Positions 40,218 to 46,527 of a stretch of DNA of 47,640 bases are shown one piece after another (the stretch's first letter is position 1; the number at the start of each line of letters is the position of its first letter). The notes below the pieces were generated by a model. That model was not told the origin of the DNA. It saw only the letters and a program-made list of their open reading frames with translations, and ran no database searches. The position numbers were made by a program, and so were the translations under genes. The stretch is from Saprospiraceae bacterium. GTDB lineage: Bacteria; Bacteroidota; Bacteroidia; Chitinophagales; Saprospiraceae. The stretch lies in the NCBI GenBank assembly GCA_029263015.1, contig JAJCYI010000106.1:1-47640 (forward strand), written 5' to 3'.

Positions 40218-42188
40218 TCATTTCAGAATCACGGTCCCCAACTCTTTGGCCAGTCCATTTCTCAAATCATTTAATTTGGCCTGTACTTTTAAAAGGCGCA
40301 TTATTTTATTGGAATCATTCTCGGCTTTTAGATCGACTAATTGTTGTTGGTTTTTTTCGCAGAGCCGGATTATTTTTTTCAATTTAAAACGCATTAAAGC
40401 ACTGGTTGAATCTTTCGAAAAATTTTCTTCCGGCATTTTTTGGGAATGCAGATATAGTTCACGTTCTCCCCAGCCGTCGCTGTATTCATAGGGTGAATGC
40501 AACAGGTCAATGGAGAGGGCACTCAATGTATGATCGGTATGGCCGATAAAGTATTGGGCAGATAAGGTTTGTTTTGAAACAACCCTATCAAGGCATTTTT
40601 TAACAATGTCTTGATATTCTTTGTTGTCAAAATCGTCGAGCACTTCTTCGATGTTACTGAGAATGTATTCAGCTACTGTGATCTCCTCTTCTTCGTCGAA
40701 TATTTCACCACCAAAAGCAATCAATAAGCGGGCGATGTCACGTTCTTGAAATTCATCACGCCCCATTTCTTTATTGGGGGATTCGATGGGCGGTACGATC
40801 TCCACCTTTGATTTTCCTCCATCAGTGGGGCTTCCTTCCGGCACGATATTGACCTGTGGCCCCCGTTTTCGATTGCGATCAAATTCCCTTTTTTGCAGGA
40901 TCTTTTTTACCACTTTGTTGGTCTCGGAAATAAGTACTTCTTCCTCCAATTCCATAACCCGGGCACATTCTTTCACATAGAATGCACGTTTGAAAGGATC
41001 TGGGACGCGTGCGATGCTATCAACAATGTCCCGTACCAAACCTGCCCGTTTAACAGGATCATTCCCAACTTCTGAAAGCAAAAGGTCGGTTTTGAAAAGG
41101 ATAAAATCCTTGGCCTGTTGGTCAATGTATTCTTTGAAGGCAGTTGCCCCGGCATTTTGCAGGTAACTGTCAGGGTCTTCTCCATCAGGCAACAATACGA
41201 CCTTTACATTCATGTCCTTTTCCAGCACCAGGTCAAGCCCGCGGAGAGCTGCCTTGATACCTGCGGCATCGCCGTCGTAAAGGATTTTTATGTTGGGGGT
41301 AAATCGTTTTATCAATAAAATCTGACCTTCCGTGAGGGAAGTGCCAGAAGAAGCTACGACATTCTCAATGCCTGCTTGGTGCAGTGAAATGACGTCGGTA
41401 TAGCCTTCCACCAAAATGCATTCGTCTTGTTTCCTTATATCCCTTTTGGCAAAATAAGCGCCATACAGGATTTTGCTCTTGGAGTAAATGTCTGTTTCAG
41501 GGGAATTAATGTATTTAGGGGCTTTGACATCTTTTTGGAGTATGCGGCCAGCGAAAGCGATGGGTTTCCCAGATAAATTGTGGATCGTGAACATGACCCT
41601 GTTCCAGAAAAAATCCCTTCCATTTTTGGTCAGTCCAAGTTTTTCAAGGTACTCTGGTTTGTAACCCATTTGAGTGGCCTTGGTGGTAAATTCACCTCGT
41701 TGGTTTGGAGCGAAGCCTAGGCCAAATTTTTTAATGGTTTCTTCTCTAAACCCTCTTTCTTTGAAATAACTAAGTCCCACGCTTTTGCCAATGTCCGTAT
41801 TTAGCAATTGGTCTTGATAAAACGTTTTTGCGAATTCATTGACAATAAAAAGACTTTCCCGTTCTTGCTGTTCGGCAGCAAATTCCGGCGTCATTTCCTT
41901 CTCTTCAATTTCGATGCGGTATTTTCCGGCCAGTTGCTTCAGCGCATCTGGAAACCCCAGGTGCTCATGTTCCATGATGAAACGGGCTGGGTCGCCACCT
42001 TTGCCGCACCCAAAACATTTGAACAGGTTTTTGGTAGGTGAAACAGTGAAGGAAGGAGTCTTCTCATTGTGAAAAGGGCAGAGTCCAATCATGTTGGAGC
42101 CCCGGCGTTTGAGGTTCACGTAATCCTGGACGACTTCTTCAATTTTGGCAGTCTCCAGTATTTCCTGTACTGTTTTTTGTGGAATCAA
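40218..42188 (-). CDS. dnaG: DNA primase
   Basis: DnaG makes the RNA primers for replication. The 656-aa product has the CHC2 zinc ribbon (Cys37, His40, Cys58, Cys61 in LCPFHNEKTPSF...FKCFGCGKGGD), the TOPRIM catalytic core from about residue 255 (CILVEGYTDVISLHQAGI; DGDAAGIKAALRG near 307), and a C-terminal helicase-interacting region. The length is normal for Bacteroidota. Upstream (42189 onward) is a long gene-free interval with the terminator array. Confidence 0.97.
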   Translation of the reverse strand: MIPQKTVQEILETAKIEEVVQDYVNLKRRGSNMIGLCPFHNEKTPSFTVSPTKNLFKCFGCGKGGDPARFIMEHEHLGFPDALKQLAGKYRIEIEEKEMTPEFAAEQQERESLFIVNEFAKTFYQDQLLNTDIGKSVGLSYFKERGFREETIKKFGLGFAPNQRGEFTTKATQMGYKPEYLEKLGLTKNGRDFFWNRVMFTIHNLSGKPIAFAGRILQKDVKAPKYINSPETDIYSKSKILYGAYFAKRDIRKQDECILVEGYTDVISLHQAGIENVVASSGTSLTEGQILLIKRFTPNIKILYDGDAAGIKAALRGLDLVLEKDMNVKVVLLPDGEDPDSYLQNAGATAFKEYIDQQAKDFILFKTDLLLSEVGNDPVKRAGLVRDIVDSIARVPDPFKRAFYVKECARVMELEEEVLISETNKVVKKILQKREFDRNRKRGPQVNIVPEGSPTDGGKSKVEIVPPIESPNKEMGRDEFQERDIARLLIAFGGEIFDEEEEITVAEYILSNIEEVLDDFDNKEYQDIVKKCLDRVVSKQTLSAQYFIGHTDHTLSALSIDLLHSPYEYSDGWGERELYLHSQKMPEENFSKDSTSALMRFKLKKIIRLCEKNQQQLVDLKAENDSNKIMRLLKVQAKLNDLRNGLAKELGTVILK

Positions 42189-42769
42189 ACCTGTATTTTG
42201 TTATCTTTGGAAATATTTTACGTAAGAAAGTATCATACGAACAACTAATTAGCTTTCGCTTTCGTTATTTTTCCTGAATTTTTGAGCTAAATTAATAAAT
42301 CCAAAAATAGCTTTTTTACCTAAATCATTGACCACCTAGCCCACACGATCAGGTTTTATTTATTATTTGAGCAAGACAAAACCTAATAACCTACCACACA
42401 AGAGAGAACTTACCACTTGATACACAAGTCTTTACGCACCCAATTATTTTTGTCAGGGATGATGAATCATTGTGATATGATTGTATATTATATTGATCGA
42501 CCATCCATGAAAATGCTTTTACAATTTTTTCTTGTGCAATTTTTTGGGCGCTTGCCTCTTACAGGTGTCTTTTGACGAGGAAAAGATAAAAACAAAAAAC
42601 AAGTACTAAACACTGAAATCTGGATGCGGCCAAAGAAGGGATATTAGTAAGAGAATTTGGCTGCGATCAAGGGTGACAAAACAAAAACTGATGTACATGA
42701 ACACAATGGGGAAACTTACCACTAACCTCGTGATCTTTATTAATTACCGATCTAAATTTACCAAAAGAT
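42189..42769. other. Non-coding leader region of the terminator array
   Basis: No protein-coding frame is credible. A plus-strand TATCTTTG box (42202-42209) with TTTG at 42176-42179 could launch a transcript rightwards. Possible stems are AGGTTTT/AAAACCT (42351-42384) and GGATG...CATCC with inner ATCA/TGAT (about 42458-42508). The 11-mer AACTTACCACT occurs twice, near 42408 and 42713. The minus-strand dnaG promoter must also lie here but was not identified. Confidence 0.45.
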
Positions 42770-42840
42770 ATAATTGGGTGTTCTCATAGTGTGTGGGCTG
42801 CCCCGTCCTGAATTGTTCGGGACGAGGGCAGTTTTTTTTT
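42770..42840 (+). ncRNA. Putative small RNA unit 1 (conserved 24-mer plus terminator)
   Basis: The conserved block GGGTGTTCTCATAGTGTGTG occupies most of 42774-42797. A terminator follows with no gap: CTGCCC (42798-42803) pairs with GGGCAG (42826-42831), CGTCC with GGACG, and GAA with TTC around a TTG loop, ending in nine T residues (42832-42840). Promoter evidence is weak: TATAATTG at 42769-42776 is one base off the -7 consensus. The plus-strand ORF beginning in this unit runs through the terminator and is not believed. Confidence 0.5.
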
Positions 42841-42965
42841 GTTTTACTGTGAGTATGGTGAGTAGTACAGTTAAGGGTCCTTTGATCAAAATGTTATGTG
42901 AAATGTCTTCCGGTATCCATTTTCAACACAGTAAAGACTGTGGCTATGAAACTGCTGGAACTAAA

Positions 42966-43033
42966 AATATTGGGTGTTCTCATAGTGTGTGGGACCAGCC
43001 TGAACCCTTCGGGTAAGTAAGGCTGGTTTTTTT
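42966..43033 (+). ncRNA. Putative small RNA unit 2
   Basis: The same 24-nt block as in unit 1 is present without change (42970-42993). The hairpin that follows is ACCAGCC (42994-43000) with GGCTGGT (43021-43027), an inner ACCC-TTC-GGGT and seven T residues. The stem differs from unit 1 but still pairs, as expected for a conserved RNA structure. An overlapping 24-codon frame (42946-43020, MKLLELKILGVLIVCG...) uses the block in one reading frame. It has no equivalent stop in units 1 and 3. Confidence 0.5.
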
Positions 43034-43084
43034 AAATATTGAGAAGGTAAGGTGGTGTGAGAAGGGTATTAATCAAGTTGTCTA

Positions 43085-43152
43085 AATAGTGGGTGTTCTA
43101 ATAGTGTGTGGGACTACCCTGAAGCCCAGATGGGTGTGTAGGGGTAGTTTTT
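43085..43152 (+). ncRNA. Putative small RNA unit 3
   Basis: The 24-nt block (43089-43112) differs from units 1 and 2 at two positions. It is followed by ACTACCC (43113-43119) pairing with GGGTAGT (43142-43148), inner CCCA/TGGG, and five T residues. The outer stem has changed sequence on both sides relative to units 1 and 2. Confidence 0.5.
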
Positions 43153-43220
43153 CACTCAACTTCGATCACCTCTGACAAGATAGGATACAGATTGCTCAAA
43201 ACCAGAAGTGTTTTCCCAAA

Positions 43221-43256
43221 GCCTGATTTAGGCCGGGCGGGGTTATTCCTGCCCGG
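43221..43256. promoter_or_regulatory. Adjacent GC-rich stem-loops in the array
   Basis: GCCT-GATTT-AGGC (43221-43233) is followed by CCGGGC...GCCCGG (43233-43238 with 43251-43256), sharing one base so that the two stems compete at the junction. No T tract of note follows. The role is unknown. Confidence 0.4.
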
Positions 43257-43299
43257 TTACCTATTCAAATGAGATTGTAAGCATCAATATTTTAAGTGA

Positions 43300-43345
43300 G
43301 AGCGTAAATTGCCTCGTGACCTTCGGGTGGCGGGGCAGTTTTTTT
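43300..43345 (+). terminator. Fourth terminator in the array
   Basis: TGCCTCG (43310-43316) pairs with CGGGGCA (43331-43337), with inner ACC/GGT around TTCG (shared with unit 2), followed by seven T residues (43339-43345). The conserved 24-mer is absent upstream, so this may be a diverged unit or an independent terminator. Confidence 0.6.
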
Positions 43346-43506
43346 GGAATGAGTTTTACTCGATCAATTAAGGTTTTGGGTATTTGCAAAATCAAGTTGA
43401 GAACGCTGAGTTTGTTTGGGGGGGTGAGAGCTAAACCTACTCCACTAACTCAACGGTACCAACCGTTAACAGGATTTGCACATAAACTTATTTAAAGGGC
43501 AGTACT

Positions 43507-46500
43507 CTATTTTGAATCTAAAGTTGGCAGGGTCGGATCGAAGGAATTAAATGCATCGTATGCAACCTCGTGAATACGTCGACGAACACGTTCGGTGAAT
43601 ATTTTTTTGTTGCGGGCAGAAGGGTGGATGCGGTTGGAGAGGAAAACATAGACCAAATCGTTCTCAGGATCTATCCAAACACAAGTTCCTGTAAAGCCAG
43701 TATGACCATATGCCGAGGAAGGGGTTTTATCAGAATAAGTTGGGTATTTTCGGTTGATTGGCTTGTCGAAACCAAGTCCTCGGCGGGCACCATGTTTTGC
43801 ATTGGTAAAAGTTTGGATGGTTTTCGGTTCAAAATATTGAATTCCTCCATAGATGCCTTTATTCGCCATCATCTGGAATAGTACAGCCATGTCTTCTGCA
43901 TTGGCAAAAAGCCCAGCATTGCCTCCAACTCCACCCATTAGGGCTGCCGATGGGTCGTGTACAAAACCATGTATGAGTGACTTGCGCCACATCCGATCCT
44001 GTTCGGTCGGCACTATATTATTCAGATCAAATTTATCCAAGGGGTTGTAAAGCATTCTTCTCAATCCAAGTGTGTGGTAAATATTATTTTGAACATAATT
44101 GTCCAATTTAACATGACCGATGTTCTCTACCGCTTTTTGCAACAGATAGAAATTGACATCGCTATACCGGAAAGCCCTTCTTTGTGAAACAGACAGGTTG
44201 AAAACCCGCTTCCAAATTGTGTCCCGATAATCTTCTCGGAAATACAGTTCCGGTCCGACTTGGATATTAAATGCCCCTTCTTCATCATGGCAAAAGATGT
44301 CATTGCATCCCTTCGGCGGCACACTTCGGTAGTTGTAAAACTTGCTGATCGGCATAGGTGCTTGCAAACCAGATTGATGGATCAGAAGGTCTTTGATTTT
44401 TATATTTCCAACCCTCGCACCTTCCTCTAAATTTACATATTGGCCAATGCTTTCGTCCAGGGCGATCTTGTTCCGTTCGTGTAGCCTCATAACTGAGAGG
44501 GTGGTCGCAGCAATTTTGGAAACTGAAGCAATGTCGTATAGATCAGTTGGGCTCGTAGCTTGTTCTTTTGTATAGGTGTGATACCCAAAAGCCTTTGAGT
44601 AAATCATTTGTCCATCTTTGACCAAAGCAACTTGGCAACCTGGGAAAACACGATTTTGAATAGCTGTCCTGGCAATAGCATCAATGCCAACTAAACGCTC
44701 TGGAGCAATGCCTGCTTTCTCAGGCCTACTAAAGCCGATCCGCTCCTTTCGGATGAATTCAGAAGCAGCAAAAGGTAGGTTGTCGTTTACAATAATAGGT
44801 AGTTTTCCGTTGACGCTCACGCCTCCGAACAAGGCTTGTGCAGCATGGCTTTCTGTCCATTTGTTGCGTTCGTAAATTTGCAGGAAAGTGATTGATTTTT
44901 CAAAAAAACCAAGATTGAGCGGATTGCCAAAATTGACCAGGATCACGTTCATCTTATTACTCAATCCATTCACACTTTGGATGAAATGTTTGTCCTGTTC
45001 CTGTGAAATGGCAATGGAATCAATTAAAATAACGGCAACAGGCTGATCACCAAGGTTTTCGAAATTAACAACTGGGAGGCCTCCTTCTGGGAAAAGGCGC
45101 AGTTGCACGGAACGGAAATCCGCATATTTTGAAAAATAGTATTTGAACTGCCGGAAATTGCTGTTGCCAAATTCAAAAACCTGGAAATCCTTTTCGAGGA
45201 TATTATTAAAAGGCAACATCTTGTTCACGTCGCTTGCCAAGGTCACTGATTTTTCAAAAAGTCCCCGGACGAAAACCTTCCACGCCGGGTGGTTGAAATA
45301 AGCCTGTATGTTTTCGGAATTTTTATAAAAATTTTTGGCACTGGGTTTATATTTCCTGACAATCTGCGGTGGTTGCTTACTGGCAAAAGAAACCAATTTT
45401 ACTACCTTCTTGATTGAATCTCTTGGCATAACGGATAGCTCAACTGGCAATTCCCCACCGGTCACCCAAGCTTTTGCGGTCAATATGCGGCGTACTCGCT
45501 TGTCCAAACCTTCTTCGGTCAAACGGCCTTCCCGCAACAACAACATTGCATAATGATAGAAGTTATCAATATTGGGAGCGAGCAGTAAGTCTGCACCTTG
45601 CAATAGTTTCAATTCTGGTGATTCTCCATCGAGCAGTTTCACCATCGAAAGCCCATGGAAATCTACCTTATCCGATAAATAATGTTGAAGTGATCTTGGC
45701 TGGCTGGCTTTCAATCCTTCATTTTCAAAAATTTCATCTTGTAAGACAAGGCCCTGTAATCCATTGCTTGCAAAACGGAGCATATCGTGCAAATGAACTG
45801 CCCGCAAAGAGTCGTTCGATTCAATATGCAGAGAGGAAAAGCCTGAAGCGAAGGCAAGTATTTTATTTTGAGCAAGCTGGGCAATCATTCTTTCAGATCG
45901 CTCTTTGAGTGCCCGTGGCTCGTATTCAAAATGATTTATATTAAAGGTTTTTCCAGCATTCAATGGAGCGGGAAGGGTTGGGAGGATGGAAAAATTGATG
46001 CCTAAAGATTTGCACTGTTCCAAGTATTCCTCCTCTAAAAACTGTTGAACTTCAAACGAGTCAATAGCGCTGATACTGAATGGTTTAGGAAATCGCTGCA
46101 AATCTTCAAATTGATTGTGCAAGGATACTTTTTGATCGGTTCCCAGAATTAGGGGTATGGCTGCAGCGCGTTTGAGGCTATCCATCCAAACAAGGTAGTC
46201 TCCAACTTTCATTTGTTGGGGCAACAAACCTCCTGCCCTTCCCCTTTTAATTTGCTTGAGGGCAGACTTTTGGATTTCAAAATCATCAAGATCAGGTGTC
46301 CAAATGATGAGCTGACCGATTTTCTCCTCCAATGTCATCGCCTGGAGAATGGATTCGACCTGCGATTCATTTACTTCTGGAAAGGGTTCCAAAGCAGGTG
46401 TTTTTCTCAATTCTGCTACTTGTTGGACAGGTAGGGAAGGATTATCTTTTTGGCATGAGTACAGCCCAGCCACCAAGAGTATGGCGGCAGTAATTAATCT

Positions 46501-46527
46501 TAATGGGATGTACAATTGAATCTTCAC
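43507..46527 (-). CDS. Lipoprotein with degenerate GH3 domain fused to serine hydrolase
   Basis: The 1006-aa product has a lipoprotein signal (LLVAGLYSC, Cys25). A GH3 N-terminal-like barrel follows (about 50-365), starting MTLEEKIGQLIIWTPDLDDF and ending VRRILTAKAW. The NagZ His-Asp loop (KHFPGHG...DSH) is replaced by LAFASGFSSLHIESND. The nucleophile strand survives as GLVLQDEIFENEG (Asp about 263), so hydrolase activity is doubtful. After a linker domain comes a beta-lactamase/AmpC-like domain (about 610-1000) with SVSK (about 667), YSD (about 786) and HTG in YGHTGFTGT (about 938). Such fusions occur in Bacteroidota. A role in cell-wall turnover or muropeptide handling is inferred. Confidence 0.88.
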   Translation of the reverse strand: MKIQLYIPLRLITAAILLVAGLYSCQKDNPSLPVQQVAELRKTPALEPFPEVNESQVESILQAMTLEEKIGQLIIWTPDLDDFEIQKSALKQIKRGRAGGLLPQQMKVGDYLVWMDSLKRAAAIPLILGTDQKVSLHNQFEDLQRFPKPFSISAIDSFEVQQFLEEEYLEQCKSLGINFSILPTLPAPLNAGKTFNINHFEYEPRALKERSERMIAQLAQNKILAFASGFSSLHIESNDSLRAVHLHDMLRFASNGLQGLVLQDEIFENEGLKASQPRSLQHYLSDKVDFHGLSMVKLLDGESPELKLLQGADLLLAPNIDNFYHYAMLLLREGRLTEEGLDKRVRRILTAKAWVTGGELPVELSVMPRDSIKKVVKLVSFASKQPPQIVRKYKPSAKNFYKNSENIQAYFNHPAWKVFVRGLFEKSVTLASDVNKMLPFNNILEKDFQVFEFGNSNFRQFKYYFSKYADFRSVQLRLFPEGGLPVVNFENLGDQPVAVILIDSIAISQEQDKHFIQSVNGLSNKMNVILVNFGNPLNLGFFEKSITFLQIYERNKWTESHAAQALFGGVSVNGKLPIIVNDNLPFAASEFIRKERIGFSRPEKAGIAPERLVGIDAIARTAIQNRVFPGCQVALVKDGQMIYSKAFGYHTYTKEQATSPTDLYDIASVSKIAATTLSVMRLHERNKIALDESIGQYVNLEEGARVGNIKIKDLLIHQSGLQAPMPISKFYNYRSVPPKGCNDIFCHDEEGAFNIQVGPELYFREDYRDTIWKRVFNLSVSQRRAFRYSDVNFYLLQKAVENIGHVKLDNYVQNNIYHTLGLRRMLYNPLDKFDLNNIVPTEQDRMWRKSLIHGFVHDPSAALMGGVGGNAGLFANAEDMAVLFQMMANKGIYGGIQYFEPKTIQTFTNAKHGARRGLGFDKPINRKYPTYSDKTPSSAYGHTGFTGTCVWIDPENDLVYVFLSNRIHPSARNKKIFTERVRRRIHEVAYDAFNSFDPTLPTLDSK

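Follow-up and report, generated by a model that had tools for sequence, protein, structure and literature searches.

A predicted family of terminator-ended small RNAs with a near-invariant core, usually located beside dnaG in the Saprospiraceae

We describe three tandem units, each consisting of a near-invariant core followed by an intrinsic terminator, in a 47,640-nt stretch of Saprospiraceae DNA (the window), and these units belong to what is, as judged by sequence comparison, a real and orthologous RNA family of the Saprospiraceae for which no earlier description was found. The kind to which it belongs, namely sibling small RNAs (sRNAs) having a conserved segment plus a terminator, is already known. 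The comparison supports the family itself, the constancy of its core, the covariation of its stem, its synteny with dnaG and its copies in viral contigs. The explanation that we prefer, and to which we give about even chances, is that the units are sibling sRNAs with their own promoters, which would act in trans through the core, the latter most likely being an mRNA seed. As RNA, the core reads GUGUUCU-NA-UAGUGUG and is preceded by an A/U-rich stretch and GG.

The three units lie on the forward strand between dnaG (DNA primase; 40218-42188, reverse strand; Pfam PF01807, PF08275 and Toprim), which is a divergent neighbour kept in many loci, and a gene with a beta-lactamase domain (43507-46527, reverse strand; Pfam). 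Unit A (42764-42840; 73.8 bits with our covariance model R1) comprises an A-rich stretch, the core, a hairpin with the outer stem CTGCCC/GGGCAG and a T-run at 42832-42840. Unit B (42960-43033; 72 bits) has the core, a hairpin with ACCAGCC/GGCTGGT and a GAA/GTA internal loop, and a T-run, and unit C (43079-43153; 60.8 bits) has a variant core, a hairpin with ACTACCC/GGGTAGT and again a GAA/GTA internal loop, and a T-run. The core is GTGTTCTCATAGTGTG at 42778-42793 and 42974-42989 and GTGTTCTAATAGTGTG at 43093-43108, so that the window form, which starts at 42778, 42974 and 43093 and is each time followed by an intrinsic terminator, can be written as GTGTTCT-C/A-ATAGTGTG. The sequence-only reading had reported a shared 24-mer, TTGGGTGTTCTCATAGTGTGTGGG, and this is indeed the same in the first two units and has two changes in the third; with up to 3 mismatches the core occurs 3 times in the window versus a mean of 0.33 and a maximum of 2 in 100 shuffles. 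The terminators with the outer stems just given, which it had also named, are recovered by folding, with a hairpin and T-run after each core and folding z values of -4.93, -2.87 and -1.95 for units A, B and C. The fourth terminator without the 24-mer is present as well (about 43309-43345, forward strand; 15.1 bits, E 0.027, folding z -3.90); it matches model positions 35-72 only, is not conserved in the genus alignment (11 rows) and is probably no family member. Just before it, the hairpin at 43228-43308 gives a sub-threshold match to Termite-leu (26.8 versus 51 bits), and this identity was rejected, the score being under the threshold and the hairpin not conserved in the genus alignment. A further full copy of the unit exists elsewhere in the same genome (G000:C160:82890). 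The claim that units ending in a terminator, with a conserved segment 5' of the hairpin, form a tandem family is borne out, and beyond this local array the units occupy orthologous positions across the bacterial family.

The covariation claimed for the outer stems holds far beyond the window. In 31 diverse units picked by the analyst, all seven of the seven modelled stem pairs have changes on both sides, with 95.4% of the cells paired, and 19 double-change cells occur versus 5.0 in shuffles. On each of five measures all 500 shuffles stayed below the observed value, and covariation in slid controls of the same set was far lower. For 116 distinct model-fitted rows, 96.7% of the cells are paired and 176 double-change cells occur versus 33.3 in shuffles, the number of pairs with a double change (7) being matched by 406 of the 500 shuffles. 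The idea of an unpaired 5' segment stands in part: a conserved stretch does precede the terminator, but it is not strictly unpaired, because weak small helices touch the core in some minimum-energy folds. RNAalifold also proposes a 3-pair helix in the core, without covariation. In the hairpins of units B and C (42994-43027 and 43113-43148), GAA is present in 25 of 25 rows and faces GTA in 21 of 25 by manual count. This internal loop, which we take to resemble the loop E or bulged-G motif, may form a structured motif that does more than terminate transcription.

Sequence information sets in sharply 13 nt before the core in the aligned units. A fuzzy search in the model-derived loci gave 118 core matches, some of them spurious, where 82 are exactly GTGTTCTCATAGTGTG, 7 have a final T and 5 have T or A at position 8; it is noted that both types of search, by pattern and by model, are biased toward conserved cores. 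The core consists of two halves, GTGTTCT and TAGTGTG, around a variable middle that tolerates insertions, as seen in rare long cores with 5 extra nt (L224, L248) or 2 extra nt (L240) in the middle; another rare form is GTGTTTTC (L241, L246). Next to dnaG, whose branches exceed one change per column, this 16-nt sequence stays nearly fixed, which points to a partner under strong constraint.

Among 60 relatives, a 20-letter core pattern with at most 2 mismatches is found in 22, and in the window's genus the core is present in 14 of 14 genomes, the own genome included. In 11 of the 14 genus genomes, one contig holds unit A, of the CTGCCC type, unit B, with ACCAGCC, and unit C, with the CTAATAG core and ACTACCC. 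An orphan unit D, in which a second hairpin follows the first one, is likewise present in 11 of the 14; both counts were made by reading the matches, and the assemblies of this genus are fragmentary. The exact 16-letter core occurs in at least 115 stretches of the genome contig collection. Of the distinct core matches (at most 2 mismatches) in the collected loci, 131 are followed by a terminator by our rule versus 58 that are not, the latter including D units, units containing N and coding sequence of other phyla. Named records with core and terminator are mostly Saprospiraceae, Lewinella, Neolewinella, Phaeodactylibacter and Aureispira, and by these records the family was identified as Saprospiraceae.

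The search for the core plus a terminator that the sequence-only reading had suggested was run with the covariance model, and it extends the units over the family: of the 199 genomes and 112 genera in the Saprospiraceae sample, model R1 finds them in 96 and 58, respectively. In the class sample R1 matches 11 of 395 genomes (3 of these in the family), and model R2 matches 45 of 298 in the order sample (40 in the family) and 5 of 395 in the phylum sample (3 in the family); stricter filters were applied to samples of more than 40 genomes, which may have cost some weak members. No convincing homologue was found outside the family in these samples, with weak matches in 8 class, 5 order and 2 phylum genomes; those inspected (the flanks of the class matches, and G702, G754, G358, G646, G679, G691, G896) look like chance or gene-end terminators, except that the match of G358 (L341), GTTTTCTCATAGTGTT plus a hairpin after a gene end, may or may not be of this sort. 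Core matches in other phyla were likewise set aside, the matches listed having no terminator by the rule and about 480 chance matches being expected by estimate. On a dnaG tree with 87 carriers and 21 non-carriers, 12 label changes are needed versus 19.3 in shuffles, with 0 of 500 as low; the tree is a quick one of a non-random sample, in which long branches leave the details unsure. The carrier distribution, clustered yet across the depth of the family, would be compatible with early presence followed by losses. In the dnaG loci of non-carriers the best upstream core site has 4 mismatches, the absence being weaker for loci near contig ends (e.g. L363, L369, L374, L376, L378), where the slice is short or misplaced.

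In 90 non-identical loci the element is divergent from dnaG, at about 81 to 1370 nt from the dnaG start. In 54 loci the ORF next to the element is a dnaG homologue. In one of these (L061) it is on the other side, and this is the one dnaG-containing locus that does not fit the divergent arrangement; the far-side neighbours form several small clusters. The upstream ORF is on the opposite strand for 130 of the 147 units having one, and so usually no gene precedes the element. Away from dnaG are unit D, adjoined by a phosphoribosyltransferase gene in L021 and L025 (Pfam), six loci of one genus (L346-L351) and two of the three copies in one further genome (G017). We considered conserved antisense control of dnaG and rejected it. 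The core is complementary to the zinc-finger codons of the window's dnaG at 12 of 16 positions, but over the dnaG sequences compared the number varies from 8 to 12 with the codons used. Moreover, pairing with 90 dnaG start regions is weaker than that of shuffled cores (mean -15.24 versus -15.92), 52 of 60 shuffled cores being at least as strong.

The family also extends to viral contigs. Two scans of IMG/VR gave 28 candidate loci, and model R2 is strong in three independent contigs, namely L390 (2118-2185; E 1.4e-13), L388 (5716-5790), which is identical over 7629 bases to L392 (11928-12002; both E 2.6e-11), and L394 (4293-4358; E 2.9e-9). A further ten viral matches reach E 2.7e-5 at best, and the stem is wholly or almost wholly missing from the alignments of the four that were inspected. 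L388 and L392 encode tail sheath, tape measure, baseplate and helicase families. Their core starts 9 nt past the end of an ORF that weakly matches tail-fibre and tail-fibre-assembly families; a search of the annotated phage collection with the DNA around the L388 element gave no match. In L394 there are transposase and Mu-type transposition families. L390 is less surely viral, its 5.2 kb matching a methyltransferase and an unknown family.

A promoter-like sequence, TGTGnAnTTT ... TCTTA, lies upstream of the window's units at 42533-42561 (forward strand) as a conserved block of the 14-row genus alignment, with a predicted RNA start at about 42570. This would give a leader of about 200 nt before the first unit, in which case the RNA length of about 65 nt proposed by the sequence-only reading would not hold for the window. 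The genus pattern, a motif chosen after looking, occurs in 10 of the 90 loci versus 0.03 in shuffles and is absent from the opposite strand; its CGTCT form is in 7 of 14 genus rows, the window itself reading CCTCTTA. A promoter at a fixed spacing from the core was not found, the best-promoter scores being like those of shuffles. On listing by locus, clade-specific upstream motifs emerged, which were also chosen after looking: on the sRNA strand, a sigma-54-like motif is present in 10 of 90 loci (0.12 in shuffles, 0 on the opposite strand), CGTCTWWA in 20 of 90 (0.77 and 0) and TAnnTTTG in 19 of 90 (6.57 in shuffles and 16 of 90 on the opposite strand, where the matches are probably dnaG's own promoter). 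We name these motifs after the sigma-54 and Bacteroidota consensus forms. A CATAC/ATAAC-TTTT block, which we liken to ECF-type promoters, precedes GTCT in 25 GTCT-aligned loci of 27 picked by the analyst. A search for ATAC-N-CGTCTATAATA in 14 genomes, one of them (G199) of another family, found two sRNA promoters and one other site, and no regulon emerged from these sites. In four of the six copies of one genus (L346-L349, two genomes; absent in L350 and L351), TAnnTTTG stands nine nt before the core, which would then sit at the RNA 5' end. Leader length ranges from almost none to about 200 nt between loci, and by manual reading no separate promoter is evident for either of the tandem units B and C. 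Two side observations concern the same upstream regions. A GTTAAAAACNATAACATT-like block, possibly a regulator site, lies about 20 nt before the CGTCT-box motif in nine loci (L002, L003, L078, L086, L122, L146, L200, L204, L207), and in L010 and L020 the last 85 nt before the first core, in the leader of unit A, resemble a small reading frame in which the two species differ mostly at third positions.

It had been suggested that the core might be a target-pairing seed and that its complements should be sought near start codons, and the tests made here lend this no support: long complements show no enrichment, the core pairs with start regions no more strongly than shuffled cores do, and some naturally occurring cores carry insertions of 2 or 5 nt. 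In the own genome, a 14-letter complement with at most 2 mismatches occurs 27 times versus 20 for the reversed pattern, 4 of the 27 being units and 1 dnaG; in 60 genomes (15 fixed letters, at most 1 mismatch), 7 non-unit matches stand against 9 controls by reading. Pairing is no better than with shuffled cores at 21 SusC-like start regions from 30 loci (of the 48 matches in the genome, 7 pass the family cut-off) and at 400 of 824 other start regions, whose ORFs were called by a simple rule. Note that the complement and start-region tests have little power for short seeds, which would escape them. Where the locus has full length, most of the own-genome complement sites fall within ORFs. The site in L173, which has 2 mismatches, is 3 nt away from where a 503-aa ORF starts, and 20 such loci contain no Rfam family.

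The Rfam search called for by the sequence-only reading, which had recognised no named family, gave 0 matches above the gathering score in the window with Rfam 15, and 0 at E up to 0.5 in seven loci with other clade forms. Among sRNA-type families of Bacteroides, a permissive scan with unit A scores MasB (BTnc201, RF04177) highest, with 23.6 bits versus a gathering score of 105 (E 0.098), well short of membership. MasB of B. thetaiotaomicron shares a GU-rich segment before the terminator, is described as narrowly conserved and has a 5' hairpin of its own (PMC10994844). The closer likeness is with FopS, a paralogous sRNA family of B. thetaiotaomicron described as conserved in Bacteroidaceae, with 14 members in B. 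theta and a 41-nt motif, with experimentally shown binding by the RRM protein RbpB and SusC targets, with one copy reported in a phage and with one member derived from a 3'-UTR (PMC11697453). Like FopS, the present units are multi-copy paralogues of Bacteroidota with a conserved 5' stretch, an intrinsic terminator and viral copies, whereas they belong to the Saprospiraceae, come in one to six copies, have different putative promoters, usually stand by dnaG and are predicted from sequence; the comparison is one of descriptions (PMC11697453). The FopS-type architecture, a single-stranded conserved 5' stretch plus a terminator, is seen here with weak helices touching the core in some folds. No FopS-named match appeared in the Rfam scans, and Rfam 15 may not contain a FopS model. 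In open-licence PMC papers, neither the core letters nor any sRNA or RNA motif described for Saprospiraceae was found. The parallel with FopS, which extends to the viral copies, suggests that multi-copy RNAs made of a segment plus a terminator are a recurrent type in Bacteroidota.

In the explanation that we prefer, each sRNA would comprise the A/U-rich stretch, GG, the core and its own intrinsic terminator, with the core at or near the RNA 5' end in compact forms and after a leader in others, the window included. The sRNAs would be transcribed from their own promoters, of a type that differs by clade, and would act in trans through the core, which by analogy with FopS would most likely be a seed pairing with several mRNAs; tandem copies may serve dose or division of labour. 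The sibling sRNAs LhrC, Qrr and OmrA/B and the sRNA RybB have a multi-copy or 5'-end-seed architecture in other phyla, and control by an alternative sigma factor, known for some of them, would be an analogy only. The L388 element, directly after a gene like a gene-end terminator, speaks against this explanation. If the units were rather 3'-end elements, in which core and hairpin stabilise or terminate the preceding transcript with no trans role, this position 9 nt after a tail-fibre-type ORF, the variable leader length and the lack of an evident own promoter before units B and C would be expected; we consider that quite unlikely, for 130 of 147 upstream ORFs are on the opposite strand, promoter-like motifs of their own are present and ordinary terminators need no fixed 16-nt core.

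A rival to which we give more weight, as a tentative possibility, is that the core is the binding site of a conserved protein, e.g. one with an RRM domain, and the RNAs are decoys or scaffolds, so that copy number sets titration and phages reach the same protein. A near-fixed core across deep divergence without enriched complements argues for it, as do the two halves with a variable middle: with cores that carry 2 or 5 extra nt, a protein site fits at least as well as a seed. Four RRM_1 proteins are above the cut-off in the genome, and FopS is bound by an RRM protein, RbpB (PMC11697453). By contrast, the complement tests are weak for short seeds, and the binding is putative. Multi-target seeds can moreover be equally conserved, as in RybB. 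A bolder form of this idea, which we hold a little more doubtful still, is that the core would be a fixed bipartite site (GUGUUCU plus UAGUGUG) for a conserved Saprospiraceae protein or RNP, with the RNAs as decoys that set its free level, promoter classes swapped and phages capturing the same partner. A DNA element, i.e. a cis-regulatory site of dnaG, an integration site or a dispersed repeat, would account for the position beside dnaG and the identical core in viral contigs; it is very improbable, since copies also stand away from dnaG, each genome has few of them, the orientation, with hairpin and T-run, is one-sided and the arms covary; the transposase and transposition proteins of L394 would need no fixed site. 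Least probable of all, and hardly to be expected, is a small protein-coding gene with its 3' end running into the core (e.g. ...NWVFS-stop in the window's genus). An open frame does enter the core in some species, the three frames being open over -45 to +20 in 0, 37 and 28 of 90 loci, but no frame is consistently open across them, in agreement with the earlier claim that no coding frame is shared. The frame GTG-TTC-TCA-TAG is closed in 90 of 90 by the core's own TAG, a stop stands two codons before the core in 35 of 90, the core has no wobble-position freedom, and its spacing to the A-rich flank shifts the reading frame between clades. We set aside repeats of type III toxin-antitoxin systems, given the terminator at the end of each unit. 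Carriers include Lewinella cohaerens, Phaeodactylibacter xiamenensis, Neolewinella and Flavilitoribacter, and these named-strain records make the family testable.

Finally, we note that near position 1500 of L182 and L184, two genomes of another family (f77) share a different element, with a hairpin and a CTGCCCCG terminator (TCCTAATCCTCACAGCTTACAAAACATT..GGATTAGTGTTTAGACTGCCCCG), which is perhaps another small RNA.
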